DNA from: Duncaniella sp.
GTDB taxonomy: Bacteria; Bacteroidota; Bacteroidia; Bacteroidales; Muribaculaceae
Reading direction: 5' to 3'
Assembly: GCA_029056055.1 (NCBI GenBank)
Contig: JAIDCC010000039.1
Span: 1 to 42,438, forward strand
Length of the DNA stretch: 42,438 nt
Both the position numbers and the translations under genes were made by a program. Below the pieces are notes generated by a model. It searched no databases, was not told the DNA's origin, and worked only from the letters and a program-made list of their open reading frames with translations. This document shows, piece by piece, positions 17,662-41,741 of this stretch (within the stretch, counting starts at the first letter, position 1; each line of letters begins with the position of its first letter).

Positions 17662-18951
17662 TTAGGGGCGGAGGGAGATGGCGAAGAGGGTGTGGCGGGG
17701 GGAGGGGGTGGTGAGCGAGAAGCGGAGCTTATGGGAGCTGAGGATTTCGCGCACCACGGTGAGGCCTATGCCGTGGCCTTCGGGGCGCGTGGTGAAGAAG
17801 GGGGTGAAAAGCTGGCGCGACACTTCGGGCGAAATGCCGGGGCCGTTGTCGGATATCACCAGGCTGTCGGGGGTGAGCGTCATCTCGACGCGCCCGTCGG
17901 CGTAGTCAGCGGCACTCTCGGCGCCGTTTTTGACGATGTTGACCACCGCTTGCTCGATGAGCACAGGGTCGAGCCTGACTATGACAGGCTTTTCGGGAAT
18001 AGATGAAACAAACTCTACGCCGCGCGGGCTGCAGAGACTCTGGAGCATGGGACGCATGTCGCTCAGGAGCGCGCAGAGGTCGACTTCGACGGGTTGCGGA
18101 GCGGGGATTTTGACAGCCTCGGCCAGACGGCCTATGAATTGCGACGTCTCGCGGCAGCGGTCGCTGCACGAGCGGAGGCTTTCGGAAATGTCGGGGTCGG
18201 TGTCGTCGAAAATCCCTGTCAGGGTGTCGAGCGTGGAGGTTACTCCCGCCATGAGATTGTTGACCTCATGGCTCATGATGCGTATCACCTTGCCGTAGCT
18301 GCGGCGTTCGGCGCTGCGCACCTCGTCGGTGAGCACTTCGATGATGTAGAAGGGATGCTGATAGCCGAGGTTCATGAACCCGTGGCGGCTGATGCGGTAG
18401 ATGGTCGAGTCGGAGAGGCGCAATTCCATGGCTGCGTCATGGGGGAGCGAGCGCATGGCATCGACCACATCGCCCTTGAGCGAGTCGAAGCGCAGCCCCT
18501 CGGGATTGCAGTCGTCGGGAATGGCAAGAATGGTGCGCGCGGCGGGATTGACCAGCGAAATGTGTATGCCGTCGTTGACCATCACCACCCCCAGAGGCGA
18601 CACGTCGAGCAGCCGCGAGAGCAGAGTGTCCTGCTCCTGCTTGCGGAGTCGCTCGGAGCGCATTTCGGCCATCATGCGGTTGAAGATGTCGATGATGCGG
18701 TCGATGTCCGGCTGCCCCACCTTGGCCAGACGCGTGGAAAACTCGCGGGCACGCAGGAGGTCGGCTCCGAGATTGATGCGCGAGAGCGGACGGATTATCT
18801 TGAAATGGAAAACGAAGGCGAGGAGCACGAGGAGCAGCGAGGCGGCGCGCAGCATCCACACCACCCACTCGGCCCCCTGACATTCGGAGGCACCCACTCC
18901 GCAGGCTATGGCCGCGGCTATTATGACGATGAGGAGAGAATAGGCATTCAT
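17662..18951 (-). CDS. Sensor histidine kinase with minimal periplasmic loop
   Basis: This 429-residue inner-membrane kinase partners the preceding NtrC-type regulator, overlapping it by 4 bases (ATGA). TM1 (about 4-20) and TM2 (about 30-50) are joined by only about nine residues, so no periplasmic sensor domain exists. A HAMP-like linker (51-100) and PAS domain (about 110-210) follow. The H-box His228 is in IMSHEVNN, the N-box in EQAVVNIVKNGAES (about 333-346), G1 DNGPGI (368-373), F-box FTPFFTTR and G2 GHGIGL (392-397). It likely phosphorylates Asp51 of the regulator. The lack of an external sensor suggests it senses the membrane, the linked transporter or an internal ligand through PAS (inference). 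Confidence 0.93.
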   Translation of the reverse strand: MNAYSLLIVIIAAAIACGVGASECQGAEWVVWMLRAASLLLVLLAFVFHFKIIRPLSRINLGADLLRAREFSTRLAKVGQPDIDRIIDIFNRMMAEMRSERLRKQEQDTLLSRLLDVSPLGVVMVNDGIHISLVNPAARTILAIPDDCNPEGLRFDSLKGDVVDAMRSLPHDAAMELRLSDSTIYRISRHGFMNLGYQHPFYIIEVLTDEVRSAERRSYGKVIRIMSHEVNNLMAGVTSTLDTLTGIFDDTDPDISESLRSCSDRCRETSQFIGRLAEAVKIPAPQPVEVDLCALLSDMRPMLQSLCSPRGVEFVSSIPEKPVIVRLDPVLIEQAVVNIVKNGAESAADYADGRVEMTLTPDSLVISDNGPGISPEVSRQLFTPFFTTRPEGHGIGLTVVREILSSHKLRFSLTTPSPRHTLFAISLRP

Positions 18952-20300
18952 CGGGGAATATCAAATTTTTCGAGGCGGCGGTATAGTCCCTGACGGGTGA
19001 TGCCGAGCAGCGAAGCCGCGCGCGTCAGATTGCCTCCCGACTCGGCCAGCGCGGCCATGATGGCCTGCCGCTCGGTCATGGCGAGACGCCCCTCGGGCGA
19101 AAGGTCGGGAGTGCCGAGGTCTTGCACCGTGAAGGCTTCGAGAGGCAGCGGGGCCGAAGGGTCGGAGGTGATGAGGGCGCGCTCGACGGCGTTGCGGAGC
19201 TGACGCACGTTGCCGGGCCACTGGAGCGAGCGCAGATAGTCGAGTGCTTCGGGCGTGATGAGCTGCGAAGGGAGCTGAGTCGCGCCGTCGGAGGTGCGCA
19301 GCGAGGATGTGCGTATCAGATGGTCGACGAGCAGGGGGATGTCGTCGCGGCGCTCGCGCAGGGCGGGGAGGCGCAGCGTCACGAGGTTGATGCGATAGAA
19401 GAGGTCTTCGCGAAACGTCCGGTCGGCCACCATGGCCGGAAGGTCGGCATTCGTGGCACACACCACGCGGATGTCGGCGCGGAGGGTGCGGCTGTCGCCA
19501 AGCGGCTCGAAAGTGTGTTCCTGAAGCACGCGCAGCAGCTTCACCTGACTGTTGAGGTCGAGGTCGCCTATCTCGTCGAGAAAGATTGTGCCCCCCTGCG
19601 CGGTCTCGAAACGCCCTTTGCGGTCGGCTACGGCACCGGTAAACGCTCCTTTCTTATGGCCGAACATCTCGCTTTCGAAGAGCGACGTGGCTATGCCGCC
19701 GAGGTTGACCTTGACCAGCGGGCCGCCACGGCGCAGACTGTTGCGGTGGATGGCGTCGGCGATGAGTTCCTTTCCCGTGCCGTTTTCGCCGGTGATGAGC
19801 ACCGGGGCTTCCGTCGGGGCCACGCGGCGCACCGTGTCGAGCAGATTGAGCAGCGCGGGGTCGCGCCCGATGATGGCCGAGCGGTCGAACGACGGGTCGG
19901 AGGCGTCGTCGGCGTCCGACTCCCTTTTCGAGGCGAGCGAGATGGCCGATTCGACATGAGCCAGCAGCGAGCCGTTGTCCCAGGGCTTGGTGACGAAGTC
20001 TACCGCCCCGGCCCGCATGGCCTCGACTGCGAGCGGAATCGAGCCCCAGGCGGTGATGAGAATCACCGGCACGTCGGGGATGAAGAGCTTGATTTGCCGC
20101 AGGAGCGTTAGACCCTCCTCGCCCGTGGTGCTCCGCGAATAGTTCATGTCGAGCAGCACAAGCGAGAGCGGTGCGCCCGAGCGCACTGCCGCCATGGCCT
20201 CCTCGGGGCCTGAGGCCTCGAGGGTGTCGTAGCCGTTGCGCCGCAGAAGCAGACGCAGCGACAGGCGCACCGATTTATCGTCGTCGACAATGAGAATCAT
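18948..20300 (-). CDS. NtrC-family sigma-54-dependent response regulator
   Basis: This 450-residue transcription activator remodels sigma-54 RNA polymerase. The receiver domain (1-120) has Asp51 (LVLLDMNYS), Thr83 and Lys105. The AAA+ domain has Walker A GENGTGKE (171-178), the sigma-54 contact loop GAFTGA (218-223) and Walker B TIFLDEIGDL (238-247). A Fis-type HTH ends the protein (NLTRAASLLGITRQGLYRRL). It overlaps the kinase by 4 bases and follows the efflux genes, whose promoter has a sigma-54-like element and upstream half-sites, so autoregulation of the cluster is likely. A vegetative-type promoter lies directly upstream. Confidence 0.95.
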   Translation of the reverse strand: MILIVDDDKSVRLSLRLLLRRNGYDTLEASGPEEAMAAVRSGAPLSLVLLDMNYSRSTTGEEGLTLLRQIKLFIPDVPVILITAWGSIPLAVEAMRAGAVDFVTKPWDNGSLLAHVESAISLASKRESDADDASDPSFDRSAIIGRDPALLNLLDTVRRVAPTEAPVLITGENGTGKELIADAIHRNSLRRGGPLVKVNLGGIATSLFESEMFGHKKGAFTGAVADRKGRFETAQGGTIFLDEIGDLDLNSQVKLLRVLQEHTFEPLGDSRTLRADIRVVCATNADLPAMVADRTFREDLFYRINLVTLRLPALRERRDDIPLLVDHLIRTSSLRTSDGATQLPSQLITPEALDYLRSLQWPGNVRQLRNAVERALITSDPSAPLPLEAFTVQDLGTPDLSPEGRLAMTERQAIMAALAESGGNLTRAASLLGITRQGLYRRLEKFDIPR

Positions 20301-20320: not shown

Positions 20321-20352
20321 CAAAATTAACTAATTATCCTTTGATTTCCAAA
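20321..20352 (-). promoter_or_regulatory. Internal promoter for the regulator-kinase pair (TTTG-N20-TAATTTTG)
   Basis: On the minus strand a -33 TTTG (plus 20349-20352, within the last codons of tolC) and a -7 TAATTTTG (plus 20321-20328) have a 20-base spacer. The predicted start is near 20315, 15 bases before the regulator start codon. It would give basal regulator and kinase independent of sigma-54. Confidence 0.7.
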
Positions 20353-21830
20353 TCGGGCTCGATGGGGGTGTCGGTCAGGTAGTCCCAGAGAGTGAGCGAA
20401 CGCAGCTGATAGTAGTAATACCACGCCAGGTAGAGGCGGTCGATGACCGAACGACGGTTTTCGTCCTTGCTGACACGCGAGTCGTTGAGGTCGAGCGTCG
20501 AGATGCGCCCTACGAGAAAAGTCTCTACGTTGGTGTCGTAGCGGCGTGCCGAAATGGTGTCGGCGCGCTCTGCCAGGGCGAGCTGCCGGCGCTGATGGTT
20601 GAAGCGCTCCACGAGGATGAAGATGTCTTGCTCGAAGTCGAGGCGCTCCTTGCGCAGACGGCTTTCTACGACGTCGCGGTTTGACTGCGCCACCTTCACC
20701 TTGCCCTCGCGTTTGCCCCAGTCGAGGATAGGTATCTTAAATCCGATTTCCACCATCTGATTGTCTTTCAGCGGCCCGTAGGCACCGCCCAGACGGGAGT
20801 CGGCGCCTGTGAAACCCACCTGCGCGAAGAGGTCAATCTGGCGGCGGTTGCCTTTGGCCGTGGCCACCGAGTAGTCGGCTTCGAGCTGACGGCGGCGCAG
20901 CGAGGCTGAGAGCGCGTTGCGGTCGAGGGCCTTTTCGAGCACGTCGGGATAGGCCACTTCGCCGAGCGCGATTTCGCCGGGCAGCTCCGTGGCCACTTCG
21001 ACATCCTGACTGATGCCAAGGAAGGAGCGCAGGGCAAACATCGACGCTTTCATGTCGGTGAGAGCCGAGGTCAGGTCGCCCTCGGCCGAAAGGCGGTTGA
21101 GTTCGAGTTGCAACAGGTCGTTGCGCGAAATCTGCCCCATGCCATACTTCGCCTCGGCCACTTCGTAGAGTTTCACCGAGTTTTCGAAGTTCTGACGCGC
21201 TATGTCGAGGTTCACCTCGGCCATGAGCAGATTGAAGTAGTTGGTGATGGCGCTCATGGCCACCCCTTCGGTCTGACTGATGTATTGCGCGAGGGCTTCG
21301 CGATAGCGCACCGGCTCGATGCGCCGGCGCCATTTGAGGCTGTTGACGCCCAAAATCGGCTGGTTGAGCCGAAGCACCACGGGGACAGCCATAAAGCGGT
21401 TGGCCGTGCCGGCGGGTGCGTCGAGCTGCCGCAGCCAGTCGAGCGACGTGGTGAGCGAGAGCGAGCCACCCGTCAACCATATGTTCTGTGTGATAGACAC
21501 TTCGCCGGTCATCTGCATGACGTTGTTTCGCACGAAGGTGTAGCGGCCGTCTTCGAGCTGATAGGAGCTGTAGGTCTTGCGATAGGAGGGTATCGTGGCG
21601 GCGAAATCCATCTCGGGCAGAAGGTCGGCACGATAGGTGCGATAGTTCCAATAGGCTTCGCGCAACTGATTGCGCGCCACTGCGGCGTCGACGCTCGAAG
21701 CGCGTGCCATGGCTATGGCGCGGTCGAGACTGAGGCGCAGGGTGTCGGCGCCCCCCGCGGCCTCGGCATGACACCGCTGACCGCAGGCAAGCGCAAACAC
21801 TATTGCCAACACTTTAATGTAACATTTCAT
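20334..21830 (-). CDS. TolC-family outer-membrane efflux protein
   Basis: This outer-membrane channel of 498 residues completes a tripartite efflux pump. The start is placed at the ATG 21828-21830, where a signal peptide begins at once (MKCYIKVLAIVFALACG, cleavage near HAEA). The longer frame from 21866 adds 12 non-signal residues and overlaps the permease gene. The body is long amphipathic helix with the two-fold repeat typical of outer-membrane efflux proteins, for example the NYFNLLMAEVNLDIA and RKERLDFEQDIFILVERF regions. It lies 28 bases after the second permease. The regulator gene follows after 33 bases. Confidence 0.9.
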   Translation of the reverse strand: MKCYIKVLAIVFALACGQRCHAEAAGGADTLRLSLDRAIAMARASSVDAAVARNQLREAYWNYRTYRADLLPEMDFAATIPSYRKTYSSYQLEDGRYTFVRNNVMQMTGEVSITQNIWLTGGSLSLTTSLDWLRQLDAPAGTANRFMAVPVVLRLNQPILGVNSLKWRRRIEPVRYREALAQYISQTEGVAMSAITNYFNLLMAEVNLDIARQNFENSVKLYEVAEAKYGMGQISRNDLLQLELNRLSAEGDLTSALTDMKASMFALRSFLGISQDVEVATELPGEIALGEVAYPDVLEKALDRNALSASLRRRQLEADYSVATAKGNRRQIDLFAQVGFTGADSRLGGAYGPLKDNQMVEIGFKIPILDWGKREGKVKVAQSNRDVVESRLRKERLDFEQDIFILVERFNHQRRQLALAERADTISARRYDTNVETFLVGRISTLDLNDSRVSKDENRRSVIDRLYLAWYYYYQLRSLTLWDYLTDTPIEPDLEIKG

Positions 21831-21858
21831 CGGATTGTCGAAAAGAGAGAGTGCTATG

Positions 21859-23115
21859 TCATTCATCTTTGAGAGCCACGGCAGGAGCCACGTGCATGGC
21901 GCGGCGCGCCGGAAACAGAGAGCCGAGGAAAATCATCAGCGACACGAGCGCCCAGGTGATGACCACACAGGCCACGAAGCGCGGAGCCACGAAGTAGCCG
22001 CCGTTGTGCCACGTGTTCATCTGATACTTGGTCAGCAGCCAGTCGCACACTATGGCTACGGGCGTCACGAGCAGGAGCAGCACTTCGCCCTCGCTGACTA
22101 TGCGGCGGAACACCGACGTGCGCGATGCGCCGCAGGCCATTCGCAGGGCTATCTCGCTCATGCGCTGGCGGGTGCGAAACCAGAATGTGCCCAGAATGCC
22201 GAGAAAGATGTTGAGGGCGAGAAACAGCGAGGCTATCGCCATCTGAGTGAGTCCTTTCACCGTGTTGCGCTGGAAGTTGTTGCGGATTTCAGTGAAGGGC
22301 TTCACCGAAGCGATGTAGAAGTTGCCGAAACGATAGTTGTCGGCCTCCTTCATCAGAAGCTCGTCGAAATGGCCGTCGTCCATCTTCTCTTTCACCCTGA
22401 CCACGAGCTCGCCGTTCGAGGTGTGGCGCGGTGCGCGGGGGATGATGATTGAGGGCGAACTGTAGCCGGGATAGAAGTCGGCGTAGCGGGCGGTCTGATA
22501 GACCCCGGCCAGCACGAGCGAGTCGCCCGAGACGTCAAACACTTCGCCGATGTGGTCGCGCAGCTCGCCGGCGCGGCTTTCGTCGCCAAGCAGGTTGGCC
22601 GAGGCGAGGAAGCATCCGCGCTGTTTCTCGTGCAAGATTTTGGCGAGTTCTTCCGAGCTCTCGCCGAGCGAACCGCGCAGCCTGAACACTATGGGGAAGT
22701 CGGCCGTCACGCGGCGATGGACAATGTAGCGCCCGTCGTTGGGGATGTCGAGCGTCTCGTGTCGCACGGGACCTCCCGAGTTGGAGCCGTTATAGAAGAA
22801 GGCGTTGTAGCCGGCTTCTACAGCCTCCACGTCGGGGCGGTTCCGGAGTGCCTCGAAAAGTTTCTGGAAGTCGTCGCGCTCGGCGCCGCCATCTTCATAC
22901 TCCTTGTATTCGGGACTCTTGGGGCTGAGTTCGCGCTGGTTGATGAGATAACAGTTTTCGGTGTTAAATCCGCGCGGTTCGTTGAACACCGAGATGTTGA
23001 CGTAGAAGAGGTCGACGAGATACCAGAGCACCACGCTGACTATGAGCAGCTCAAGGCTGAGCCACGTGTTGGCGCGCCATTCGTTGGATATCTGGCGCAG
23101 GAGTTTTCTTTTCAT
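21859..23115 (-). CDS. MacB/FtsX-type ABC transporter permease (second)
   Basis: This inner-membrane permease of 418 residues belongs to the MacB/FtsX family. It has TM1 at about 17-38, a large periplasmic domain (about 40-280), then three membrane segments near 284-310, 335-360 and 380-405. A conserved stretch (RQRMSEIALRMACGASR) typical of FtsX permeases follows TM2. It overlaps the first permease by 4 bases, so the two permeases may form a heterodimer with the single ATPase upstream. It lacks a fused ATPase, unlike classic MacB. Confidence 0.88.
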   Translation of the reverse strand: MKRKLLRQISNEWRANTWLSLELLIVSVVLWYLVDLFYVNISVFNEPRGFNTENCYLINQRELSPKSPEYKEYEDGGAERDDFQKLFEALRNRPDVEAVEAGYNAFFYNGSNSGGPVRHETLDIPNDGRYIVHRRVTADFPIVFRLRGSLGESSEELAKILHEKQRGCFLASANLLGDESRAGELRDHIGEVFDVSGDSLVLAGVYQTARYADFYPGYSSPSIIIPRAPRHTSNGELVVRVKEKMDDGHFDELLMKEADNYRFGNFYIASVKPFTEIRNNFQRNTVKGLTQMAIASLFLALNIFLGILGTFWFRTRQRMSEIALRMACGASRTSVFRRIVSEGEVLLLLVTPVAIVCDWLLTKYQMNTWHNGGYFVAPRFVACVVITWALVSLMIFLGSLFPARRAMHVAPAVALKDE

Positions 23116-24404
23116 TTCTTTCCTGATAATGCGTTAACGATATTGGTGCGCGAGGCCTGCAAGGCGGGGATGCCGGCGCTGAGGAGGTTGAGCAGGAAGC
23201 AGAAGAACAGGGCCCAGCCGAAGGTGCTCCACTGCATGAGCGAGCCGACGGAGACTCCGGTGATGTCATCGGCACCCCACGTGGCCGAAAAGAATGTCTC
23301 CTTGAAGAGCAGGGCGAAAATCATCGAGAGGAGCCAGCCCACCAGACCTGCCGCCACAGTGATGACGAGGTTTTCCATGAAGAGGTCTGACATGATTTCG
23401 AAGCGTGTGGCGCCAAACGCGCGGCGCACTCCTATCTCCTTGGCGCGGCGGCTCAGGCGGCTGTTGGTCATCGACGAGAGGTTGACCGCGGGCACGAGCA
23501 GCAGGATGGCATAGGTGATGAGGTGGCGCTTACGCAGGGCTTTCACATCGGGTTCCTGATTGGCCCACGGGGCGGAAAGTTCTTCCTCGATGTCGTAGGG
23601 ACGGCCCATTCGTTTGATTTCCCAGCCGGCCTCGCCAATCTGTGCGTTGTATTTGGCCAGCATCTTTCCGTATTCCTCGCGGATGGCGGGGAAGTCGGCC
23701 TTGTCGCGCGCCAGAATGAGCGCGGAGAGCATTCCCATGTAGCCGTCGTTCCATACGTCGTCTATGGTTGTCGTGGCTGAAAACGGCACCCACACGTCTC
23801 CATAGGTGAAGTGTGACACCGAGGGCACGTCGGCCACAACGCCGCAAATTCTGTAGGGCATGTGGTCGAGCTCCACCTGACGGCCTGTCACGTCGGTGTT
23901 ACCGAAGAGCTTTTTGGCCACCGAGGCCGAAATGACCACCACGGGGACACCTGAGTCAAACTGCTCGCGGGTGAAGGGCTCGCCGGATTTCCAGTCGAAG
24001 TCGAACACCTTGAAGAAACGGTCGTCGACATCTTTGCGCAACACCGGCACGGGCGTTCCGCCGGCGGCCGCGATGGGCGTCGTGGTGAAGCCGTTGCCGA
24101 AGGCGGTCACCTCTTCGGGTGTGGTGAGCGAATAGATGGTCTCTTTGATTGTCTTAAACGATGTGGCTCCGTTCGAGGTGTTGAATCCGTCGCCCCAGTT
24201 GTTGTTGCTGATTGTGGTATAGGAGCAGGCGAGCCAGCGGTCTTTGTTGGTTTCGGGCCGCAGGTCGGAGTAAGGGAGGTTGACGGTCATCACCACCACC
24301 ATGATGAGGAAGATGGCGAGGGCCGAACCGATGAGCGAGAGGGCGCTGACCAGCGGCTGCTGCTTGAGCGACGCAAACGCCCTTGATATGAGATTGTTTT
24401 GCAT
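23112..24404 (-). CDS. MacB/FtsX-type ABC transporter permease (first)
   Basis: This 430-residue inner-membrane permease pairs with the overlapping second permease. TM1 (about 17-42, VSALSLIGSALAIFLIMVVV) precedes a MacB-type periplasmic domain (about 45-275), followed by membrane segments near 285-305, 340-365 and 390-415. SRRAKEIGVRRAFGATR is the FtsX-family cytoplasmic signature. It begins 32 bases after the ATPase gene. The substrate is not evident from sequence; related systems in Bacteroidota export peptides, lipids or drugs. Confidence 0.9.
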   Translation of the reverse strand: MQNNLISRAFASLKQQPLVSALSLIGSALAIFLIMVVVMTVNLPYSDLRPETNKDRWLACSYTTISNNNWGDGFNTSNGATSFKTIKETIYSLTTPEEVTAFGNGFTTTPIAAAGGTPVPVLRKDVDDRFFKVFDFDWKSGEPFTREQFDSGVPVVVISASVAKKLFGNTDVTGRQVELDHMPYRICGVVADVPSVSHFTYGDVWVPFSATTTIDDVWNDGYMGMLSALILARDKADFPAIREEYGKMLAKYNAQIGEAGWEIKRMGRPYDIEEELSAPWANQEPDVKALRKRHLITYAILLLVPAVNLSSMTNSRLSRRAKEIGVRRAFGATRFEIMSDLFMENLVITVAAGLVGWLLSMIFALLFKETFFSATWGADDITGVSVGSLMQWSTFGWALFFCFLLNLLSAGIPALQASRTNIVNALSGKK

Positions 24405-24436: not shown

Positions 24437-25108
24437 TCAGCCCACCTGGCGGCCGTCGAAGAATCGGATGATGCGGTGTGTCAGGCGTGCCTGTTCTTCG
24501 TTGTGGGTCACCATGACGATGGTGTGGCCTTCGTCGGCGTTGAGCGAGAGCAGGAGGTCCATCACCTCGGCACCCATCTGCGAGTCGAGGTTGCCGGTAG
24601 GTTCGTCGGCAAGAAGGATTTCGGGCTGACCGACGATGGCGCGGGCTATGGCCACACGCTGGCACTGACCGCCCGACAGCTGCGAGGGGCGGTGGTTGAG
24701 ACGATGCGACAGCCCTACGCGGTCGAGCACCTTGCGCACGCGCTCGTCGCGGTCGTGGCGCGACATGTTGCGATAGGTCAGCGGCAGCTCCACGTTGTCT
24801 CTGACTGAGAGCGAGTCGATGAGGTGGAAGCTCTGGAACACAAATCCGAGCTTGGTGTTGCGGAATCGGGCGAGGGCGGCGTCGGAGAAGCGCGAGGGGT
24901 CGGAGTTGTCGAGAAGCACGCGCCCCGTGGTGGGCGTGTCGAGAAGTCCTACTATGTTGAGAAGCGTTGACTTGCCGCAGCCCGAGGGGCCCATGATGCT
25001 GACGAAGTCGCCTTTTTCGATTTCGAGGTTGACGTTTTCGAGGGCCACGGTTTCTATCTCTTCCGTGCGATAGAGTTTGCCGACGTTTTCGAGTTGAATG
25101 ATTGCCAT
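24437..25108 (-). CDS. MacB/LolD-type ABC transporter ATP-binding protein
   Basis: This is the cytoplasmic ATPase of the efflux ABC module, 223 residues. Walker A GPSGCGKST (about 39-47), the Q-loop region FVFQSFHL, signature LSGGQCQRVAIARA, Walker B ILLADEPTGNLDS and the switch His in VTHNE are all intact. The LADEPTGNLD form is typical of the MacB/LolD subfamily. It lies 12 bases after the adaptor gene and upstream of two separate permeases, so the split architecture is ATPase plus two FtsX-type permeases. Confidence 0.95.
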   Translation of the reverse strand: MAIIQLENVGKLYRTEEIETVALENVNLEIEKGDFVSIMGPSGCGKSTLLNIVGLLDTPTTGRVLLDNSDPSRFSDAALARFRNTKLGFVFQSFHLIDSLSVRDNVELPLTYRNMSRHDRDERVRKVLDRVGLSHRLNHRPSQLSGGQCQRVAIARAIVGQPEILLADEPTGNLDSQMGAEVMDLLLSLNADEGHTIVMVTHNEEQARLTHRIIRFFDGRQVG

Positions 25109-25120
25109 ACTATGTTTTCT

Positions 25121-26365
25121 TTATTTGATTTTCAGTGTTTTGTTGTTAAGGAGGTCTTTGAGGTCGGAGACTACGACTGTCTCGCCTTCGCGGAGGCCCG
25201 AGCGCACTTCCACCCACTGGTGGTTGGCGTCGCCCAGCTCGATGTCGCGCACGTTGAGACGGTCGCCGTCGGCCACGAACATCTTATACGAGCCGGGGCC
25301 GGAGTAGTAGGAGCCGCGCGGCAGGCGGATTGTCTCGTCGACGATGCCGCACTGCACGTAGATGTCGGTCTTCAGACCCGAGCGAAGCACCGGGTCGGCG
25401 TCTTGGTCGAGCGACACTTCAAACGAGATGACGCCGTTTTCCGACAGTGGCGTGAGGTTGCTCAGCGTGCCTTCGAGTTCCTTCTTGCCGATGACCACCG
25501 AGGCTCGCGCGCCCACACCCACTTTCGAGGCGTAGGCGTCGGGCATTGTGCCTTTCACCTTGAAGTGGCCGAGGTCGGAAATCACGGCGAGGCGCGTGCC
25601 TTCGCTCACCTGCTCGCCGATGTGGTCGTTTATCCATGTCAGCGTGCCGCGGCGCGGGGCCACGATGCGTGCGTTGTCGAGGGTGCGGCGCATTTCGTCG
25701 AGATTGCGCGCTGCAATGGAGCGTTCGAGCTGCTTGACGCCCACAGCCGCGTCGGCCACACGGGTTTCATTGTCTATCAGCTGACGCAGTTGGTCGAGCT
25801 CGAGGCGTCCGGTGTTGACTGCGAGTTCGGCCTGACGCACGCGGTCGCCGGTGCCCGAGCCGATGCTGTCGAGGTAGCGCTCGTTGCGCAGCTCCACTTC
25901 GAGGCGTTTCAGGGTCATTTCCTTCACCTCGGCCTGCATGCGCAGGTCGGAGAGATGCGAGGCGTTGTTGAGCTCCTGACGATGCACTTCATGCTCTTCC
26001 ATTGCGATGCGGTCGGCCAGACGCGAGAGCTCGGCCTCGGTGCTGAGCAGGTCGAGACGCATGATGGGCGTGCCGGCCACGACGCTGTCGCCCGAGGTGA
26101 GAAACACTTCCTCGATGCGCGAGGCGATGGGCGATGTGATGATTTCCTCGTAGGCGGGTGCCACCTGCCCCGCGCCGCTCACCGTCACCGAGATTGTCCC
26201 CCGGTCGGGGGTGGCAAACGTGAGGTCTGACCTCTTCACCGAGGTCTCCATTGCTCCGAGCGTGAGCCACACGACGGCCACTACGGCTGCTATCGAACCG
26301 CCCCACACCATCAGGCGGCGGTTGCGGCGTGATTTGATTTCGGAGTCTGAAATTGGTCTGTCCAT
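25121..26365 (-). CDS. HlyD/MacA-family periplasmic adaptor
   Basis: This membrane-fusion protein of 414 residues links the ABC permeases to the TolC channel. The start is placed at the ATG 26363-26365. The longer frame from 26398 would begin at or upstream of the transcription start predicted from the sigma-54-like promoter. After a basic N-terminus, TM about 18-38 anchors it (MVWGGSIAAVVAVVWLTLG). It then has half of a lipoyl domain (SPIASRIEEVFLTSGDSVVAGTPI), a coiled-coil hairpin (about 105-225), the second lipoyl half (ARIVAPRRGTLTW) and beta-barrel/membrane-proximal domains. It is the first gene of the seven-gene cluster. Confidence 0.9.
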   Translation of the reverse strand: MDRPISDSEIKSRRNRRLMVWGGSIAAVVAVVWLTLGAMETSVKRSDLTFATPDRGTISVTVSGAGQVAPAYEEIITSPIASRIEEVFLTSGDSVVAGTPIMRLDLLSTEAELSRLADRIAMEEHEVHRQELNNASHLSDLRMQAEVKEMTLKRLEVELRNERYLDSIGSGTGDRVRQAELAVNTGRLELDQLRQLIDNETRVADAAVGVKQLERSIAARNLDEMRRTLDNARIVAPRRGTLTWINDHIGEQVSEGTRLAVISDLGHFKVKGTMPDAYASKVGVGARASVVIGKKELEGTLSNLTPLSENGVISFEVSLDQDADPVLRSGLKTDIYVQCGIVDETIRLPRGSYYSGPGSYKMFVADGDRLNVRDIELGDANHQWVEVRSGLREGETVVVSDLKDLLNNKTLKIK

Positions 26366-26404
26366 TGTTGCTTTAAGTGATGAATAGGTTTTTGCCATAA
26401 TTCA

Positions 26405-26420
26405 TGCCAAAACCGTGCCA
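26405..26420 (-). promoter_or_regulatory. Sigma-54-like -24/-12 promoter of the efflux operon
   Basis: The minus strand reads TGGCACGGTTTTGGCA, against the consensus TGGCACG-N4-TTGCW, with one mismatch in the -12 box. The GG and GC dinucleotides are exactly 10 bases apart. The predicted start is near 26394, giving a leader of about 29 bases to the adaptor ATG. A partial vegetative -7 match (TAATTTTG, plus 26419-26426) overlaps it but has no -33 at proper spacing. Confidence 0.7.
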
Positions 26421-26465
26421 AAATTATAATCGTTTGATTTTCAAGATATATTAATTTCATCGTGC

Positions 26466-26520
26466 GTCCGAAAACGGACACCGGAGTGTCCGCTGCGTAA
26501 AGCTGTCCTCCCGACGGACA
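26466..26520. promoter_or_regulatory. Array of TGTCC/GGACA half-sites (candidate enhancer)
   Basis: Three inverted repeats cluster here: GTCCG-N4-CGGAC (26466-26479), GGACAC-N4-GTGTCC (26476-26491) and TGTCC-N7-GGACA (26504-26520). They lie about 72-126 bases upstream of the predicted sigma-54 start, the usual position for NtrC-type enhancer sites. Binding by the cluster's own regulator is inference. Confidence 0.55.
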
Positions 26521-26598: not shown

Positions 26599-26638
26599 AA
26601 CGCCCCACTCCCCCGCAACTGCGGAGAAATGGGGCGTT
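26599..26638 (-). terminator. Stable hairpin between the repeat cluster and the efflux promoter
   Basis: AACGCCCCA (26599-26607) pairs with TGGGGCGTT (26630-26638), and CCGC/GCGG pairs inside the loop. It could insulate the efflux promoter from upstream transcription. Confidence 0.4.
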
Positions 26639-34280: not shown

Positions 34281-37200
34281 TTGACACTGCCCTCGCTCAC
34301 ATATCGTCTGCCCCTCGCCCTGCTTGCCGTCGTGATGTTTGCCGTCGCGTCGGCTTTCGGCGTGTCCGCACAGCAGACCTCCGGAGGCTTTGTCACACCC
34401 GGCTTCACTCCCCCCGCCACGGTCATCTCGTCGCAGCCGCTCGTCAGCGCGGCCGACTCGGTAATGATGCCCTGGCCCGTGGCCAACGCCATCCCGCAGA
34501 GCTACGAAGACCTCATGCAGGCAGAGTATGCCGCCGACCTCGCCTCGCCCTCAAACATCCGCACCGTCGTAGACTTCGACCCCTCGCTCGGCTTCTACGT
34601 GGTGCGCACCCTCCTGGGCGACCGCGACGTCACCACTCCGTTCTATCTCACTCAGGCGCAATACAACGCCTGGCAAAACCGCCTCTCGATGCAGCGCTAC
34701 CTGCGCGAGCGCAATTCGGCCGCGGCCAAGGGCGAGAAAGACAAGGAGCCGTTCAACATCCTCGACATGAACTTCGCCCTCGGTCCCCTCGACAAGATTT
34801 TCGGCCCGGGCGGCGTAAGCCTCAAGACCCAGGGACAGGTGACGATTCAGATGGGTGTCAAGTCAAACAAGACCGACAATCCCGCCCTCTCGCTCGAATC
34901 GCGCCGCCACACCTATTTCGATTTCGACCAGAAAATCCAGGCCACCGTCCAGGCCGGCGTCGGCACGCGCATGAAGTTCAACATGACCTACAACACCGAC
35001 GCCACGTTCGACTTCGACTCGAAGAACATCAAACTCGCCTACGACGGCGAGGAAGACGACATCGTCAAGCAAATCGAGGCGGGCAACGTGTCGATGACCA
35101 CCGGCTCGTCGCTCATCCGCGGCTCGACGGCTCTCTTCGGCATCAAGACCAAGCTCCAGTTTGGCAAACTCACCGCCACGGCTCTCATCTCGCAGCAAAA
35201 TTCGCAGTCTACCTCGGTCAGCTCGAAAGGCGGCGCGCAGACCACCGATTTCTCCGTCCGCGCCGACGAGTATGACCAGAACCGCCACTTCTTCCTGGCC
35301 CACTACTTCCGCGACAATTACGACCGCTTCGCCTCGAAGCTCCCCTTCGTCTCGTCGGGCATCAAAATCACGCGCATCGAAGTGTGGATTACCAACAAGA
35401 ACTCCAACTTCGAGCAAGCGCGCAACTTCGTGGGCTTCGCCGACATCGGCGAGGCCTCGCGCCTCACGTCGTCCTACTGGCAGCCCGACCCTTCGGTCAT
35501 CGTGCCCTCCAACCTCTCGAACAACCTCCTCGCCGTCATCAAGGCCGACTATCCCGGCGCGCGTCAAATCAACACCGTGACGCAGGCGCTCGCCCCCCTC
35601 GCGGCCATGGGCATCGAGGGCGGACGCGACTACGAGAAAGTCGAGTCGGCCCGCCTGCTCTCGTCGTCGGAGTACACCCTCAACTCAACCCTCGGTTACA
35701 TTTCGCTCAAAAGCGCCCTCAACAGCGACGAGGTGCTCGCCGTGGCCTACGAATACACCTACAACGGCAAGGCCTACCAGGTGGGCGAGTTCTCGGCCGA
35801 CATCACGCAGACCGACCAGAGCCTCTACCTCAAGATGCTCAAGTCTACCACCATCGACCCCCGCACGCCAGCGTGGGACCTCATGATGAAAAACGTCTAC
35901 CCCCTGGGGGCCTACCAGGTGCAGAAGTCAAACTTCCGCCTCAACATCAAATATCTCTCCGACACCACAGGCACCGAAATCAACTACCTGCCCGTGCCCT
36001 CCATCGCCAATCAGCCGCTGCTTCAGGTGATGGGGCTCGACCGCATCGACTCAAACGAGGCCTCAAACCCCGACGGTTTCTTCGACTTCATCGAGGGCTA
36101 CACCATCCTCGCCTCGCAGGGCAAGGTGATTTTCCCCGTGGTCGAACCGTTCGGCAGCCACCTCGCCGAGAAAATCGGCGACCCCGTGCTGGCCGAACGC
36201 TATTGCTACAACGAGCTCTACGACTCTACGCTCATCGTGGCCCGCCAGTTTGCCGACAAAAACAAATTTGTCCTTGCAGGTCGCTACCAGGCTTCGTCGG
36301 GCTCGCAGATTCGCCTCAACGCCATGAACGTGCCCCGAGGGTCGGTGGTGGTGATGGCCGGCGGCGTGCCCCTCACCGAAAACGCCGACTACACCGTCGA
36401 TTATGCCATGGGCATCGTCACCATCACCAACCAGAGCATCATCGACTCGGGCCAAAGCATCTCGGTCACCCTCGAAAACCAGAGCCTCTACTCCACACAG
36501 CGCAAGACCCTCCTCGGCCTCGACCTCAACTACAAGTTTAACAAAGACTTCGAGTTGGGCGCCACGGTCATGCACTTCTCCGAGAAGGCACTCACCGAAA
36601 AGGTCAACATCGGCGACGAAGTGGTCAATAATACAATGTGGGGACTCAACCTGCGCTACAACACCCGCTTCATGTGGCTCACGAACCTCCTCAACAAAAT
36701 CCCCACGGTCAACGCCACCCAGCCCTCCACCCTCAGCGTGCAGGCCGAGTTTGCCCAGCTCGTCCCTCACTCGGGCAAATCGGGCTCTACCAAGGGGTCG
36801 AGCTACGTCGACGACTTCGAATCAACCCAGACCGGCATCGACCTCCGCTCCCCCTACTCGTGGAACCTCGCCTCGACACCCTACGACCCGTCGCCCACCG
36901 CGCTCTTCCCCGAAGCCGCCCTCTCAAACAATGTGGACTACGGCAAAAACCGCGCCCTCATCAACTGGTATTTCATCGACCGTATGTTTACCATACGCAA
37001 TTCGTCGCTCTGCCCCGCCTACATCAAAAACGACCCCGCGCAGGTCAACAACCCCTACATCCGTGAGGTCACGAGCCGCGAAATCTTCCCCGGGCGCCAG
37101 CTCACCTACGGCGAAAGCAACACCATCCAGACGCTCAACCTCTCGTTCTACCCCACCGAGCGCGGCCCCTACAACCTCGACGCCACAAACATCGACCGCG

Positions 37201-40200
37201 ACGGCTCGCTCCTCAACCCCGAGCGCCGCTGGGGCGGCATCATGCGCAAGATGGACAATCCCAACTTCGAGGCCACCAACATCGAATACGTGCAGTTCTG
37301 GATGCTCGACCCCTTCCTCGACCCCGACGCTGACAACCGCGACGGCGGCGACCTCTACCTCAACTTCGGCGAGGTGAGCGAGGACATCCTCAAAGACGGA
37401 CTCAAGAGCTACGAAAACGGCATACCCGTCGACGGTGACGACCGCTTCATGGAAGAAACGGTCTGGGGACGTGTGTCTACCCAGAACTCCCTCACCTACG
37501 CCTTCGACAACAATTCCTCGTCGCGCCCCGTGCAGGACGTCGGCTTCGACGGTCTCGTCAACGAAGACGAATTCTCCTTCTCTTCCTACGCCGACTATCT
37601 CACCGCCCTCCGCACCAAGCTCTCGCCCGATGCGATAGGCCGCATGGAGGCCGACGCCTTCTCGCCCTTCAACGACCCCGCCGGCGACAACTATCACTTC
37701 TTCCGCGGCTACGACTACGACGAGCAGCGCCTCGGTGTGCTCGAACGCTACAAACGCTACAACGGCGTGGAGGGCAACTCCCTCTCGCCCGAGACGGCCC
37801 CCGACGCGCTCTACCAGTCGTCGCGCTCCACCCCCGACGTCGAAGACATCAATCAGGACAACACCCTCAACGAATACGAACGCTACTATCAGTATCGCGT
37901 CTCAATCCGTCCCGCCGACCTCGAAGTGGGCAAAAACTTCATCACCGACAAGCAGGTGAGCATCGTGGCCAACAACGACGGCTCCACCCAGGAAGTCGTC
38001 TGGTATCAGTTCAAGGTGCCCCTCGCGGCCTACGAGAAGAAAGTGGGCTCTATCAACGACTTCTCTACCATTCGCTTCGCCCGAATGTTCATGACCGGTT
38101 TCCGCGCGCCCACCCACCTGCGTTTCGCCACATTCGAACTCGTCAAGGGTGAATGGCGCCCCTACCAGTTCAACCTCAACAACCGCGGCGACTCTCCCGC
38201 CGAGGGCACTCTCGACGTCGGCGTGGTCAACATCGAAGAAAACGCCGACCGCGAGCCGGTCAACTACGTCCTTCCCCCGGGTGTCACCCGCATCACCGAC
38301 CCCGGACAGAGCCAGATTGTGCAGCTCAACGAGCAGTCGATGTCGCTCAAGGTTGAAGACCTCCGCGCCGGCGACGCCCGCGGTGTCTACAAAAACACCC
38401 TCCTCGACCTGCGCAACTACAAGCGCCTCCAGATGTGGGTTCACGCCGAGCGCCTCATCGACGATGCCACAAACCTGCGCAACGGCGAGCTCTCCGTATT
38501 CATCCGCCTCGGCTCCGACGTCAAGGCCAACTACTATGAATACGAAGTGCCCCTCGAACTCACTCCCTTCAAGCACTACGACGACGATGCCGCCGGACGC
38601 GCCGCCGTCTGGCCCCGAGAAAACTACCTCGACTTCGCCCTTCAGAGCCTCGTCGACCTCAAGAAGGAGCGCAACCGCGCCAAAAACGAAAATCAGCCCG
38701 GCGTGGGCTACGGGGTGGTCTTCACCGGTCGCGACCCCGCCAACGAACGAAACCGCATCAGCGTCATCGGCAACCCCTCGCTCTCCGACGTGCGCGTCAT
38801 GCTCATCGGCGTGCGCAACAACTCCGCACATACCAAAGACGGCATCGTATGGGTCAACGAGCTAAAGGTCACCGACTTCAACAACGAGGGCGGCTGGGCC
38901 GCCAAGGCCAACGTCAACCTCGCGCTCTCCGACGTGGCCACCTTCAACGTGGCCGGGCACGTCGAGACCGCCGGCTTCGGCAGCGTAGACCAGCCGCTCA
39001 ACTCACGCCGCCTCGACGACTACCGTCAGCTCAACTTCGCCATGCAGGTTGATGCCGGCCGCTTCCTCCCCGAGAAAGCCAAGCTCCGCGCCCCAATCTA
39101 CTACTCCTACTCCGAAGAGGTCACCACCCCCAAATACAACCCCCTCGACCAGGACGTAGAGCTGAAAGACGCTCTCGACGCCTGCACCACGCAGGCGCAG
39201 CGCGATTCTATCAACAATTTCGCCATCGAGCGCTCCACCGTCAAGAGTTTCTCCATCTCAGGCCTGAAGTTCGACGTCAAGTCGAAAAACCCCATGCCCT
39301 GGGACCCCGCCAACTTCACCCTTAATTTCTCGTTCAACAAGCAGCACAAGAACGACCCCAACACCGAGTACGAGAACACCAACGACTACCGCGGCTCTCT
39401 GCAATACTCCTACACCCCCTTCCTCAAGGGGGTGCGTCCCTTCGCATTCATCAAGAGCAAGAGCAAACACCTCAAGTTCTTCAAGGAATGGGAGTTCAAC
39501 TACGCGCCATCCAACATCTCGTTCCTCACCAACATCTCGCGCTACTACTACGAGCTCCAGACCCGCTCCGAAGTCGACCAGGATTTCCAGCTCCCCGTCT
39601 CGGTCAGCAAAAACTTCATCTGGGACCGCCAGCTCTCGCTGACGTGGAACCTCACCAAATCGCTCACGGCCACTTTCCAGAGCAACACCTCGGCGCGCAT
39701 CGAAGAGACAATGGGCGCCGTCAACCGCCGTCTCTTCCCCGACGAATACAAGCAGTGGAAAGACACCGTCCTCCAGAGCCTCCTCCACCTCGGCACGCCC
39801 TGGAGCTACAACCAGACTTTCACCGCCAACTACCGCGCCCCCTTCTCGCGCATTCCCGCCATCGACTTCCTCACCGCAACGGCCACCTACAACGCCACCT
39901 ACCGCTGGGACCGAGGCGCCGAGGTAGACGGCATCTCGATGGGCAACTCCATCGCCAACCAGGCCACGTTCAACACCGACGGCCGCATCAACTTCGAGAC
40001 CCTCTACAACAAATGGGGCTGGGCCAAGAAGGTCAACCAGCGTTTCTCGACCCGGCGCGCCGCGGCCGCGGCCAAAAAGCCCAAGAAGTTTGAACGCACT
40101 TTCACTCTGCGCCCCGACACCACCCTCGAAATCCGCCACAACCTGCGCACCACCCGCGTCAAGGTCACTGCCACCGACACCAAGGGTGTCCCCTTCCGCG

Positions 40201-41741
40201 TCACACACAAGGTAGTCGACCCCAACAACATCACCATCCTCACGCGCGGCGACCAAAACATCAAATTCACCATTGAGGAAATCATCAAGGAAGACCGCAC
40301 GTTCTGGCAGAACTTCTCGGAGTATGCCGGCCGCTTCATCATGTCGCCCCGCTCCGCCTCCGTGCGCTATCGCGACACCCGCTCCATGTCGCTCCCCCTC
40401 TTCCGCCCCAACATCGGCGCCGCCTTCGGCCAGTCGGCCGCTTTCGGCCCCCTCTCGCCCGGCCTTGACTTCGCTTTCGGTTTCGCCGGCAGCGACTACA
40501 TCGACAAAGCCCTCTCGCGTGGCTGGCTCATCACCGACGACGGACAGACTTCGCCCGCCATCTCTACCCACGGCCACGAACTCAACATCGAGCTGAACCT
40601 CGAACCCATCCGCGGCCTCAAAATCCAGCTCACCACCAACCGCACCGACAATCGCACGCAGTCCACTCAGTTCATGTATGAAGGAATGCCCACTTCCCTC
40701 TCCGGCTCCTACACCAAGACCCACGTGGCGCTGCGCACCGCCCTGCGTCGCTTCAGCGCCGACGACGGATACGCCTCCGACGCTTTCACGCAGTTCCTCG
40801 ACAACATCCCCGTCATCGCCTCGCGCATCGAGCAGCAATATGCCGGCGCGCTCTACCCCACCACAGGCTCCTTCGCCGACAACATCCATGCCGGGCAGCC
40901 CTTCAACCCCGAGATAGGCACCATCAGCCCCACTTCGCCCGACGTCCTCATCCCCGCTTTCATCGCCGCCTATACCGGCACCGATGCCAAGCGCCAATAC
41001 CTCACGCCCTTCCCCTCGTTCCGCTTCGCCCTCCCCAACTGGCGCATCACCTACGACGGCCTCATCCAGATAGGCAATCTCAAAAACATCTTCAAGACCT
41101 TCACCCTCTCGCACGCCTACCAGTGCACCTACTCCGTAGGCTCCTACGGCTCGTTCCTCAACTGGCAGGCCGCGCCCAACAACCCCTCGCTCGGTTTCAC
41201 TCTCGACGAACTCTCAGGCTCGCCCGTCCCCTCGTCGCTCTACAACATCTCGTCGGTAGCCATCACCGAGAAATTCGCCCCCCTCATCGGTGCCTCCGTC
41301 ACTCTCAAAAATGAAATGACCATCTCAGCCGAATATCGCAACTCGCGCACCCTCACCCTCAACACCTCGGCCGGACAGATAGTGGAAGCCGGACAGACAG
41401 GTCTCAAATTCGGCCTCGGTTACAAAATCATCGGCTTCAACACCGTCCTCAAGATGAAAGGCTCCGGCCACGGCATTTCAAACGACCTCACCCTCAACGC
41501 CGACTTCAACCTCTCCGAGACGCAGGCCCTAATCCGTCGCATCGAGACTGCCTACACTCAAGCCACCTCGGGCACCCGCTCTCTCAACATCAACGTCATG
41601 GCCAACTACGTCATGTCGCGACGCCTCACAATCGGCGCGTTCTTCGACCATCAGGTCAACACCCCCATCGTCTCCTCGACCGCCTTCCCCACATCATCCA
41701 CATCATTCGGCATCAACTTCAACCTTTCGCTCGCACGATGA
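34281..41741 (+). CDS. sprA: SprA/Sov, type 9 secretion system outer-membrane translocon
   Basis: This giant outer-membrane beta-barrel, 2486 residues, forms the protein-conducting channel of the type 9 secretion system. The size matches SprA of Flavobacterium and Sov of Porphyromonas. The start appears to be a TTG at 34281, since it supplies a full signal peptide (about 1-32: basic-hydrophobic, LPLALLAVVMFAVAS, then VSAQQ). The first in-frame ATG at 34338 would destroy that signal. The N-terminal region after about residue 170 includes FNILDMNFALGPLDKIFGPGG and GQVTIQMG, typical of SprA. Many strand-rich blocks follow up to the C-terminal barrel strand ending LSLAR. It ends in ATGA, overlapping the next gene. 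Other T9SS genes are not in this window. Confidence 0.93.
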   Translation: MTLPSLTYRLPLALLAVVMFAVASAFGVSAQQTSGGFVTPGFTPPATVISSQPLVSAADSVMMPWPVANAIPQSYEDLMQAEYAADLASPSNIRTVVDFDPSLGFYVVRTLLGDRDVTTPFYLTQAQYNAWQNRLSMQRYLRERNSAAAKGEKDKEPFNILDMNFALGPLDKIFGPGGVSLKTQGQVTIQMGVKSNKTDNPALSLESRRHTYFDFDQKIQATVQAGVGTRMKFNMTYNTDATFDFDSKNIKLAYDGEEDDIVKQIEAGNVSMTTGSSLIRGSTALFGIKTKLQFGKLTATALISQQNSQSTSVSSKGGAQTTDFSVRADEYDQNRHFFLAHYFRDNYDRFASKLPFVSSGIKITRIEVWITNKNSNFEQARNFVGFADIGEASRLTSSYWQPDPSVIVPSNLSNNLLAVIKADYPGARQINTVTQALAPLAAMGIEGGRDYEKVESARLLSSSEYTLNSTLGYISLKSALNSDEVLAVAYEYTYNGKAYQVGEFSADITQTDQSLYLKMLKSTTIDPRTPAWDLMMKNVYPLGAYQVQKSNFRLNIKYLSDTTGTEINYLPVPSIANQPLLQVMGLDRIDSNEASNPDGFFDFIEGYTILASQGKVIFPVVEPFGSHLAEKIGDPVLAERYCYNELYDSTLIVARQFADKNKFVLAGRYQASSGSQIRLNAMNVPRGSVVVMAGGVPLTENADYTVDYAMGIVTITNQSIIDSGQSISVTLENQSLYSTQRKTLLGLDLNYKFNKDFELGATVMHFSEKALTEKVNIGDEVVNNTMWGLNLRYNTRFMWLTNLLNKIPTVNATQPSTLSVQAEFAQLVPHSGKSGSTKGSSYVDDFESTQTGIDLRSPYSWNLASTPYDPSPTALFPEAALSNNVDYGKNRALINWYFIDRMFTIRNSSLCPAYIKNDPAQVNNPYIREVTSREIFPGRQLTYGESNTIQTLNLSFYPTERGPYNLDATNIDRDGSLLNPERRWGGIMRKMDNPNFEATNIEYVQFWMLDPFLDPDADNRDGGDLYLNFGEVSEDILKDGLKSYENGIPVDGDDRFMEETVWGRVSTQNSLTYAFDNNSSSRPVQDVGFDGLVNEDEFSFSSYADYLTALRTKLSPDAIGRMEADAFSPFNDPAGDNYHFFRGYDYDEQRLGVLERYKRYNGVEGNSLSPETAPDALYQSSRSTPDVEDINQDNTLNEYERYYQYRVSIRPADLEVGKNFITDKQVSIVANNDGSTQEVVWYQFKVPLAAYEKKVGSINDFSTIRFARMFMTGFRAPTHLRFATFELVKGEWRPYQFNLNNRGDSPAEGTLDVGVVNIEENADREPVNYVLPPGVTRITDPGQSQIVQLNEQSMSLKVEDLRAGDARGVYKNTLLDLRNYKRLQMWVHAERLIDDATNLRNGELSVFIRLGSDVKANYYEYEVPLELTPFKHYDDDAAGRAAVWPRENYLDFALQSLVDLKKERNRAKNENQPGVGYGVVFTGRDPANERNRISVIGNPSLSDVRVMLIGVRNNSAHTKDGIVWVNELKVTDFNNEGGWAAKANVNLALSDVATFNVAGHVETAGFGSVDQPLNSRRLDDYRQLNFAMQVDAGRFLPEKAKLRAPIYYSYSEEVTTPKYNPLDQDVELKDALDACTTQAQRDSINNFAIERSTVKSFSISGLKFDVKSKNPMPWDPANFTLNFSFNKQHKNDPNTEYENTNDYRGSLQYSYTPFLKGVRPFAFIKSKSKHLKFFKEWEFNYAPSNISFLTNISRYYYELQTRSEVDQDFQLPVSVSKNFIWDRQLSLTWNLTKSLTATFQSNTSARIEETMGAVNRRLFPDEYKQWKDTVLQSLLHLGTPWSYNQTFTANYRAPFSRIPAIDFLTATATYNATYRWDRGAEVDGISMGNSIANQATFNTDGRINFETLYNKWGWAKKVNQRFSTRRAAAAAKKPKKFERTFTLRPDTTLEIRHNLRTTRVKVTATDTKGVPFRVTHKVVDPNNITILTRGDQNIKFTIEEIIKEDRTFWQNFSEYAGRFIMSPRSASVRYRDTRSMSLPLFRPNIGAAFGQSAAFGPLSPGLDFAFGFAGSDYIDKALSRGWLITDDGQTSPAISTHGHELNIELNLEPIRGLKIQLTTNRTDNRTQSTQFMYEGMPTSLSGSYTKTHVALRTALRRFSADDGYASDAFTQFLDNIPVIASRIEQQYAGALYPTTGSFADNIHAGQPFNPEIGTISPTSPDVLIPAFIAAYTGTDAKRQYLTPFPSFRFALPNWRITYDGLIQIGNLKNIFKTFTLSHAYQCTYSVGSYGSFLNWQAAPNNPSLGFTLDELSGSPVPSSLYNISSVAITEKFAPLIGASVTLKNEMTISAEYRNSRTLTLNTSAGQIVEAGQTGLKFGLGYKIIGFNTVLKMKGSGHGISNDLTLNADFNLSETQALIRRIETAYTQATSGTRSLNINVMANYVMSRRLTIGAFFDHQVNTPIVSSTAFPTSSTSFGINFNLSLAR

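Follow-up and report, generated by a model that had tools for sequence, protein, structure and literature searches.

Results

Gene content of the locus

The sequence analysed is a 42,438-nt contig of Duncaniella sp. (JAIDCC010000039.1, assembly GCA_029056055.1), which we refer to in its entirety as the window; it comes from a genome of 2.88 Mb in 129 contigs that is 99.8% complete. Seven closely spaced genes lie on its minus strand: a periplasmic adaptor of the HlyD/RND-MFP type (25121-26365), an ABC transporter ATPase of the MacB/LolD type (24437-25108), a MacB-like permease (23112-24404), an FtsX-type permease (21859-23115), a TolC-type outer-membrane efflux protein (20334-21866, PF02321), an NtrC-family response regulator (18948-20300) and a sensor histidine kinase with a PAS domain (17662-18951). 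Domain matches bear out the operon as it had been outlined in a preliminary description of this DNA, with an NtrC-type regulator carrying an intact GAFTGA loop as the sixth gene. Adaptor, MacB-type permease, ATPase and TolC-type channel thus stand together in one predicted operon, the make-up of a MacAB-TolC-type tripartite ABC efflux system, which suggests a role in efflux. A terminator-like hairpin of 18 pairs on the minus strand (26599-26638) separates the operon from the upstream 4-alpha-glucanotransferase gene; the window holds two terminator-like sites, against an average of 1.1 in shuffles. Two observations on gene content can be added: several Bacteroidaceae relatives (L156, L163, L184, L188, L189 and others) have extra permease genes after the adaptor, and the plus strand of the window contains an open reading frame of 2486 aa at 34281-41741.

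The -24/-12 element upstream of the adaptor

Upstream of the adaptor, on the minus strand at 26420-26405, lies the sequence TGGCACGGTTTTGGCA, which differs from the consensus TGGCACGNNNNTTGCW at a single position, a T to G change in the -12 box. It places GG at -25/-24 and GC at -13/-12 with the GG-N10-GC spacing, exactly as the preliminary description had it, and sets the predicted transcription start at 26394. Taken alone, this match is no better than chance within the window: there is one match with at most one mismatch to TGGCACGNNNNTTGCW, and shuffled windows contain 0.48 on average and at least one in 41 out of 100 cases. Genome-wide counts were discarded as evidence, since a slightly looser pattern with up to two mismatches occurred less often than in the control (599/556 versus 954/980).

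The comparison with relatives gives a different picture from the shuffles. The named-genome sample consisted of the best 80 of 399 relatives, and two loci without upstream sequence (L115, L161) were left out, giving 79 assessable regions, that is, the window and 78 of the 80 named Muribaculaceae/Bacteroidaceae loci, L133 included. An element was present upstream of the orthologous adaptor in all 79, in a set of regions that share ancestry and therefore do not count as independent events. Within 160 nt, an element score of at least 10/12 was reached in 68 of 78 regions (the window and 77 others) compared with 0.8% of 1560 shuffles. Seven of the 78 scored just 8 or 9, a range in which 43% of shuffles reach at least 8, and these were accepted because the upstream palindrome described below sits at 52/53 bp. 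In three loci (L122, L150, L181) the element was found beyond 160 nt in a 900-nt search, at -172, -178 and -228, with scores of 10, 12 and 10; L181, which has no strict match to the palindrome, is the weakest of the 79 regions. None of 76 regions deviates in TGGC or in the G of the -12 box; the C of that box is kept in 53, and positions -6 to -4 before TGG are variable. The form of the -12 box found in the window, TGGC, is a minority variant (5/76 regions, including the window). Within the genus, all 19 upstream regions of genomes with an adaptor show a TTGGCAC-type element when read by eye. The conservation leads us to reject a pure chance match, despite the shuffle result within the window, and the loss of the -24/-12 bases in relatives that keep the operon, which the preliminary description had named as grounds for abandoning its reading, was seen in none of the 79 regions.

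The position of the element also bears on the start of the adaptor. A longer reading frame would begin with an ATG at 26398-26396, and because the predicted +1 lies 3' of this codon, the adaptor probably starts with the ATG at 26365 (MDR...), as had been proposed. In agreement with this, M1, D2 and R3 are invariant in 14 aligned sequences (14 of the 19 genus adaptors).

A predicted enhancer palindrome and an IHF-like site

Further upstream on the minus strand we found two features that the preliminary description had missed and that, judged from their conservation in sequence, are part of the promoter. One is a palindrome, TGTCCGTTTTCGGACG (26465-26480, one mismatch), which has the character of an upstream activating sequence (UAS), or enhancer, and to which the NtrC-type regulator is predicted to bind. 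Its consensus TGTCCGNNNNCGGACA is matched at 10/12 or better in 74 of 76 regions, and the distance from its centre to the first T of the element is 52 bp in 39 regions, 53 bp in 34 and 73 bp in one, with the fixed offset from the element serving as the control for the UAS score. In L178 the upstream sequence comprises 110 nt only, which is too short to show a UAS. The distance from the element to the start codon, by comparison, ranges from 44 to 228 nt across regions, indicating that the spacing between UAS and element is constrained while the surroundings drift. An additional upstream half-site of the UAS, CGGACA, is located at 26487-26492 on the minus strand, and CGGACA or CGTACA is common near this offset in relatives (columns -70 to -65).

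The other feature, AATCAAACGATTA (26427-26439, minus strand), is situated between the UAS and the promoter and matches the IHF consensus, WATCARNNNNTTR, at 9/9 positions in the window. At the fixed offset, 63 of 75 regions match at least 8/9 positions, compared with 0.3% of shuffled spacers (5% at any offset), where the motif was scored on the same regions in which it was first noticed; a stricter pattern, WATCAANNNNTTR, is matched at 8/9 or better in 48 of the 75. Directly before the motif (columns -23 to -21) there is an invariant T (75/75) followed by a conserved GA, and since these fall outside the IHF consensus, the site could also be that of another bending or binding protein. The arrangement has the IHF-like site between UAS and -24 that an IHF-assisted enhancer-promoter would have; the genome has four matches to PF00216, the DNABII family, and bending by a DNABII protein is predicted.

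The promoter arrangement is kept from Muribaculaceae to Phocaeicola vulgatus. Searching 297 genomes of the family for a composite of UAS and element, we counted by hand 70 places in 61 genomes, compared with 19 places for the reversed control. Of the 30 composite loci returned, 28 have an adaptor, and the two that lack one (L194, L206) look like chance occurrences; among 18 chosen composite places, two of them already included in the 30, 15 have an adaptor or ABC gene and the three exceptions all belong to one genome, G133. Across the order, the exact UAS-plus-promoter pattern was found in 6 of 393 genomes, a count that says little on distribution, as the exact form misses the window and many variants.

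Some of the composite places merit description in their own right. In G133 (L225, L226, L227) the composite is found in front of two genes for outer-membrane beta-barrel proteins (PF14905) and, at a distance of 350 nt, before a gene whose 685-aa product has no Pfam match; the regulon may have spread to these genes. In G183 three composite sites (L229, L230, L231) precede three different ABC transporter operons, and two of these operons have their own regulator and kinase. Three bins labelled Staphylococcus, Lachnospiraceae and Paenibacillus (L130, L135, L153) carry this Bacteroidales operon and are probably mislabelled records.

RpoN and the candidate activator

The genome encodes RpoN, with one PF04552 match (E 1.3e-44), so that GG and GC at N10 spacing, an upstream enhancer palindrome and the sigma factor itself are all present. 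Within the genus, RpoN was found in 24 of 27 genomes. The three in which it was not found are 77-87% complete; two of them, G008 and G010, carry the adaptor, and the third, G007, has a partial one at a contig end. The product of the sixth gene has the make-up of an NtrC-family response regulator, with a receiver domain (PF00072), an AAA+ domain (PF00158) with Walker motifs and GAFTGA at residues 218-223 (19649-19632, minus strand), and a Fis-type HTH (PF02954). Among 37 regulator sequences, 27 read GAFTGA, two GSFTGA, two GAYTGA, four GAFTDA and one GAYTDA, and one has no readable loop. The Asp-containing forms belong to Bacteroidales relatives (GAFTDA in L148, L150, L157 and L159, GAYTDA in L187), whose promoters still keep the -24/-12 element. 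A Gly-to-Asp change in the loop that contacts sigma-54 is reportedly a bypass change in NorR.

Regulator and transporter co-occur across the genus. The adaptor is present at E <= 1e-40 in 19 of 27 genomes, including that of the window, and an orthologue of the regulator (at least 56% identity) in 20, namely all 19 with the adaptor and G022, which is 71% complete. Six genomes that are 84-99% complete (G002, G009, G011, G014, G020, G021) have RpoN and a match of the second-activator type, and in these neither an adaptor nor a linked-regulator match at 1e-40 nor the composite pattern was found. This co-occurrence supports the regulator as the likely activator, as the preliminary description had suggested. 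The genome holds two strong PF00158 matches of 226 bits each, the linked regulator and a protein on contig C128, and two further ones that are above the cut-off yet weak (37 and 28 bits).

Elsewhere in the genome, a second candidate sigma-54 target is TGGCACGGTTTTTGTT on the minus strand of L100, 94 nt before an 851-aa ORF that is Clp-ATPase-like by its N-terminus; a UAS was not evident in the 110 nt examined. The only mismatch-free place among the matches listed in the genome is TGGCACGGTTTTTGCT at position 93 of L102, 48 nt before a 735-aa ORF, with a TANNTTTG box in between; the part of this ORF that was scanned has no Pfam match.

A probable second promoter in front of the regulator

In the available text of PMC7366714, the housekeeping promoter of the phylum takes the form of a -7 box TAnnTTTG and a -33 box TTTG. 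Such a sequence is found on the minus strand directly before the regulator gene (20321-20352), where a -33 TTTG (20352-20349) has its TTG 20 bp from a -7 box TAATTTTG (20328-20321). Within 70 nt upstream of the regulator, the window has TANNTTTG, as do 30 of 33 entries from relatives, the exceptions being L118, L120 and L110; for entries with the regulator inside the operon the count is 26/28, and 11 entries have a TTG at 17-23 bp. (L153 and L107 represent the same contig, which is thereby counted twice among the entries for the regulator promoter and the kinase.) Before the other genes apart from the adaptor TANNTTTG was absent in every case, 0/71 for the ATPase, 0/47 and 0/47 for the permeases (0/165 for these three together), 0/6 for the channel and 0/5 for the kinase, and before the adaptor it was found in 8/79.

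The location of the regulator varies. In 29 of the 80 named loci it is found downstream on the same strand, in one it is divergent, and 50 show no regulator in the stretch covered, many of these stretches being incomplete. In Duncaniella muris DSM 103720 (L138) regulator and kinase come after the transporter genes; in Phocaeicola vulgatus ATCC 8482 (L156) the regulator falls outside the stretch covered. In two genus genomes, G003 and G012 (L106, L107), the regulator is divergent from the adaptor with the UAS in the shared intergenic stretch, and no -24/-12 element was found there in the sense of the regulator. In two others, G015 and G018 (L108, L110), it is far from the adaptor, and no UAS half-sites and no above-chance -24/-12 match were found for these unlinked copies. 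The adaptor promoters of all four genomes keep both UAS and -24/-12 element. Because the regulator seems to have its own promoter and occurs in divergent and unlinked copies, its basal supply looks independent of the efflux promoter, with read-through feedback as an option. In the window, autoregulation by read-through across the 33-bp gap before the regulator is possible, yet it is not a conserved requirement.

Discussion

Proposed mechanism

The most coherent reading of these data, and one in which we have high confidence, is that 26405-26480 constitutes a complete sigma-54 enhancer-promoter that drives the efflux operon, with the regulator-kinase pair on a housekeeping promoter of its own. 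The anatomy of the promoter, its fixed spacing, the co-occurrence of regulator and transporter and the second promoter-like sequence can be read directly from the genomes, and both promoters are presumably active. The partner kinase would phosphorylate the NtrC-type regulator, which would then occupy the palindrome TGTCCG-N4-CGGACA, some 77 bp before the start. Between palindrome and element the DNA would be bent by a DNABII protein of the IHF/HU type. The GAFTGA loop of the regulator would then remodel RpoN polymerase at -24/-12, with transcription of the tripartite efflux operon (MacB type) beginning near 26394. The housekeeping promoter at 20321-20352 would hold the regulator-kinase pair at a basal level, and where the pair lies at the 3' end of the operon it may gain expression by read-through. 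Much of the preliminary description survives in this mechanism, that is, the sigma-54 promoter, supported by the near-total conservation of element, UAS and IHF-like site, the likely activator and the start at 26365; its closed feedback circuit does not.

Alternative explanations

The main alternative named in the preliminary description was a vegetative promoter. On the minus strand at 26419-26426, overlapping the -24/-12 element, there is indeed a -7 match, TAATTTTG, which fits TAnnTTTG exactly, and one could imagine that a housekeeping promoter of the sigma-ABfr type drives the operon and that the resemblance to -24/-12 is fortuitous, the more so as an equally good match arises in 41 of 100 window shuffles. 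The relatives speak against this: TANNTTTG is found at this place in just 8 of 76 regions including the window, while TGGC and the -12 G never vary. In the window itself the closest TTG on the upstream side is at 15 bp, where about 20 would be expected, and a UAS and an IHF-like site at fixed spacing would be left without a role. We therefore reject the -7 match as the main promoter of the operon and regard this explanation as extremely improbable. A somewhat less remote, though still very improbable, scenario accepts the sigma-54 promoter and assigns it to another activator, for instance the one on contig C128, making the linked regulator merely a target. That the genome has a second strong sigma-54 activator match could be taken to favour it, as could the retention of a protein of this second type in genus genomes without the transporter; the module, however, goes together with the linked regulator, for the six genus genomes with RpoN and a second-activator-type match but no adaptor or regulator match yielded no composite pattern, and the UAS palindrome would suit a dimeric Fis-type HTH.

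The remaining alternative concerns the wiring, and is compatible with the sigma-54 part of our preferred reading. In a strictly closed loop, as the preliminary description envisaged, the sigma-54 promoter would be the sole promoter of the regulator that activates it. The gene order is suggestive of this, with the regulator sixth of seven close minus-strand genes and downstream on the same strand in the 29 named loci, and in the two divergent cases the UAS between both genes could in principle serve both. Against it weigh the conserved -7 box that immediately precedes the regulator in the window and the 30 entries, the divergent regulators without -24/-12 and the unlinked ones without UAS or -24/-12, and we consider a strict loop very unlikely. 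As far as can be judged from sequence, the regulator does not depend solely on the promoter that it is predicted to activate, and the feedback loop is at best partial.

A possible link to transporter sensing

The kinase has two N-terminal hydrophobic helices separated by a loop of less than 10 aa, an arrangement that hydropathy shows for the window and for 30 of 33 entries from relatives, one entry being a 6-aa fragment. The kinase may thus be of the intramembrane-sensing type, and its place next to FtsX-type permeases recalls Bce modules, in which the kinase reads the state of its own exporter. One could speculate, with considerable doubt, that the locus is a transporter-sensing detoxification module built on sigma-54, in which the intramembrane kinase reads its own MacB/FtsX-type exporter and drives the NtrC-type regulator, the regulator is supplied from a housekeeping promoter, and a rigid 52/53-bp enhancer with an IHF bend replaces free looping. 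If so, read-through would act as a tunable gain rather than as a locked loop.

Relation to known systems

Few papers on sigma-54 in gut Bacteroidota were found, and no title or abstract among them concerned this operon or its UAS. Sigma-54 control of this permease class has already been predicted in Bacteroidia: the available text of PMC12316311 reports predicted sigma-54 promoters for COG0577 (MacB/FtsX-type) permeases, which it calls first evidence, and for 414 COG2204 (NtrC-family) genes, notably in other phyla. That text differs from the present analysis in giving no UAS, bend site, cognate regulator or housekeeping promoter of the regulator, and its main text does not contain the string 'ihf'. 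In Flavobacterium psychrophilum, mapped -24/-12 promoters (motif SM4) are tied to protein quality control and envelope stress, and the available text of PMC9723704 names other genes (gliding motility, protein quality control, the sprB operon) and assigns no activators. In the portions of the literature covered here we found no mention of the enhancer or the IHF-like site, of the near-fixed spacing, or of the cognate regulator and its promoter, and to that extent these appear to be new. At this locus regulator, enhancer, bend site and promoter are all defined, so that the regulon, the DNA code of the activator and the efflux signal become testable in cultured species, and the near-fixed enhancer spacing offers a test of how tightly the geometry of looping is set in the presence of a built-in bend site.

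The best NCBIfam models for the regulator are AtoC, NtrC and ZraR, at 373.8, 367.9 and 346.5 bits, far below the respective equivalog cut-offs of 714, 558.6 and 760, so that by this measure it is not an orthologue of any of the three; its relatives in the PDB are 4l4u (NtrC family) and 1ojl (ZraR). Like the MacAB-TolC and darobactin (Dar) exporters, the operon combines the domains of an adaptor, an ATPase, a permease and a TolC-type channel; it differs from them in having two separate permeases and an unfused ATPase, and its scores against the MacA/MacB and DarC/DarD models stay under the equivalog cut-offs. The promoter resembles NtrC-controlled sigma-54 promoters with IHF, of the glnA, nifH and pspA type, which likewise combine a UAS palindrome, a bend site, a -24/-12 element and an AAA+ activator with GAFTGA. 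In those promoters the distance from UAS to promoter is variable, whereas here 73 of 74 regions have 52/53 bp, and the genes under control form a tripartite efflux operon of the ABC type.
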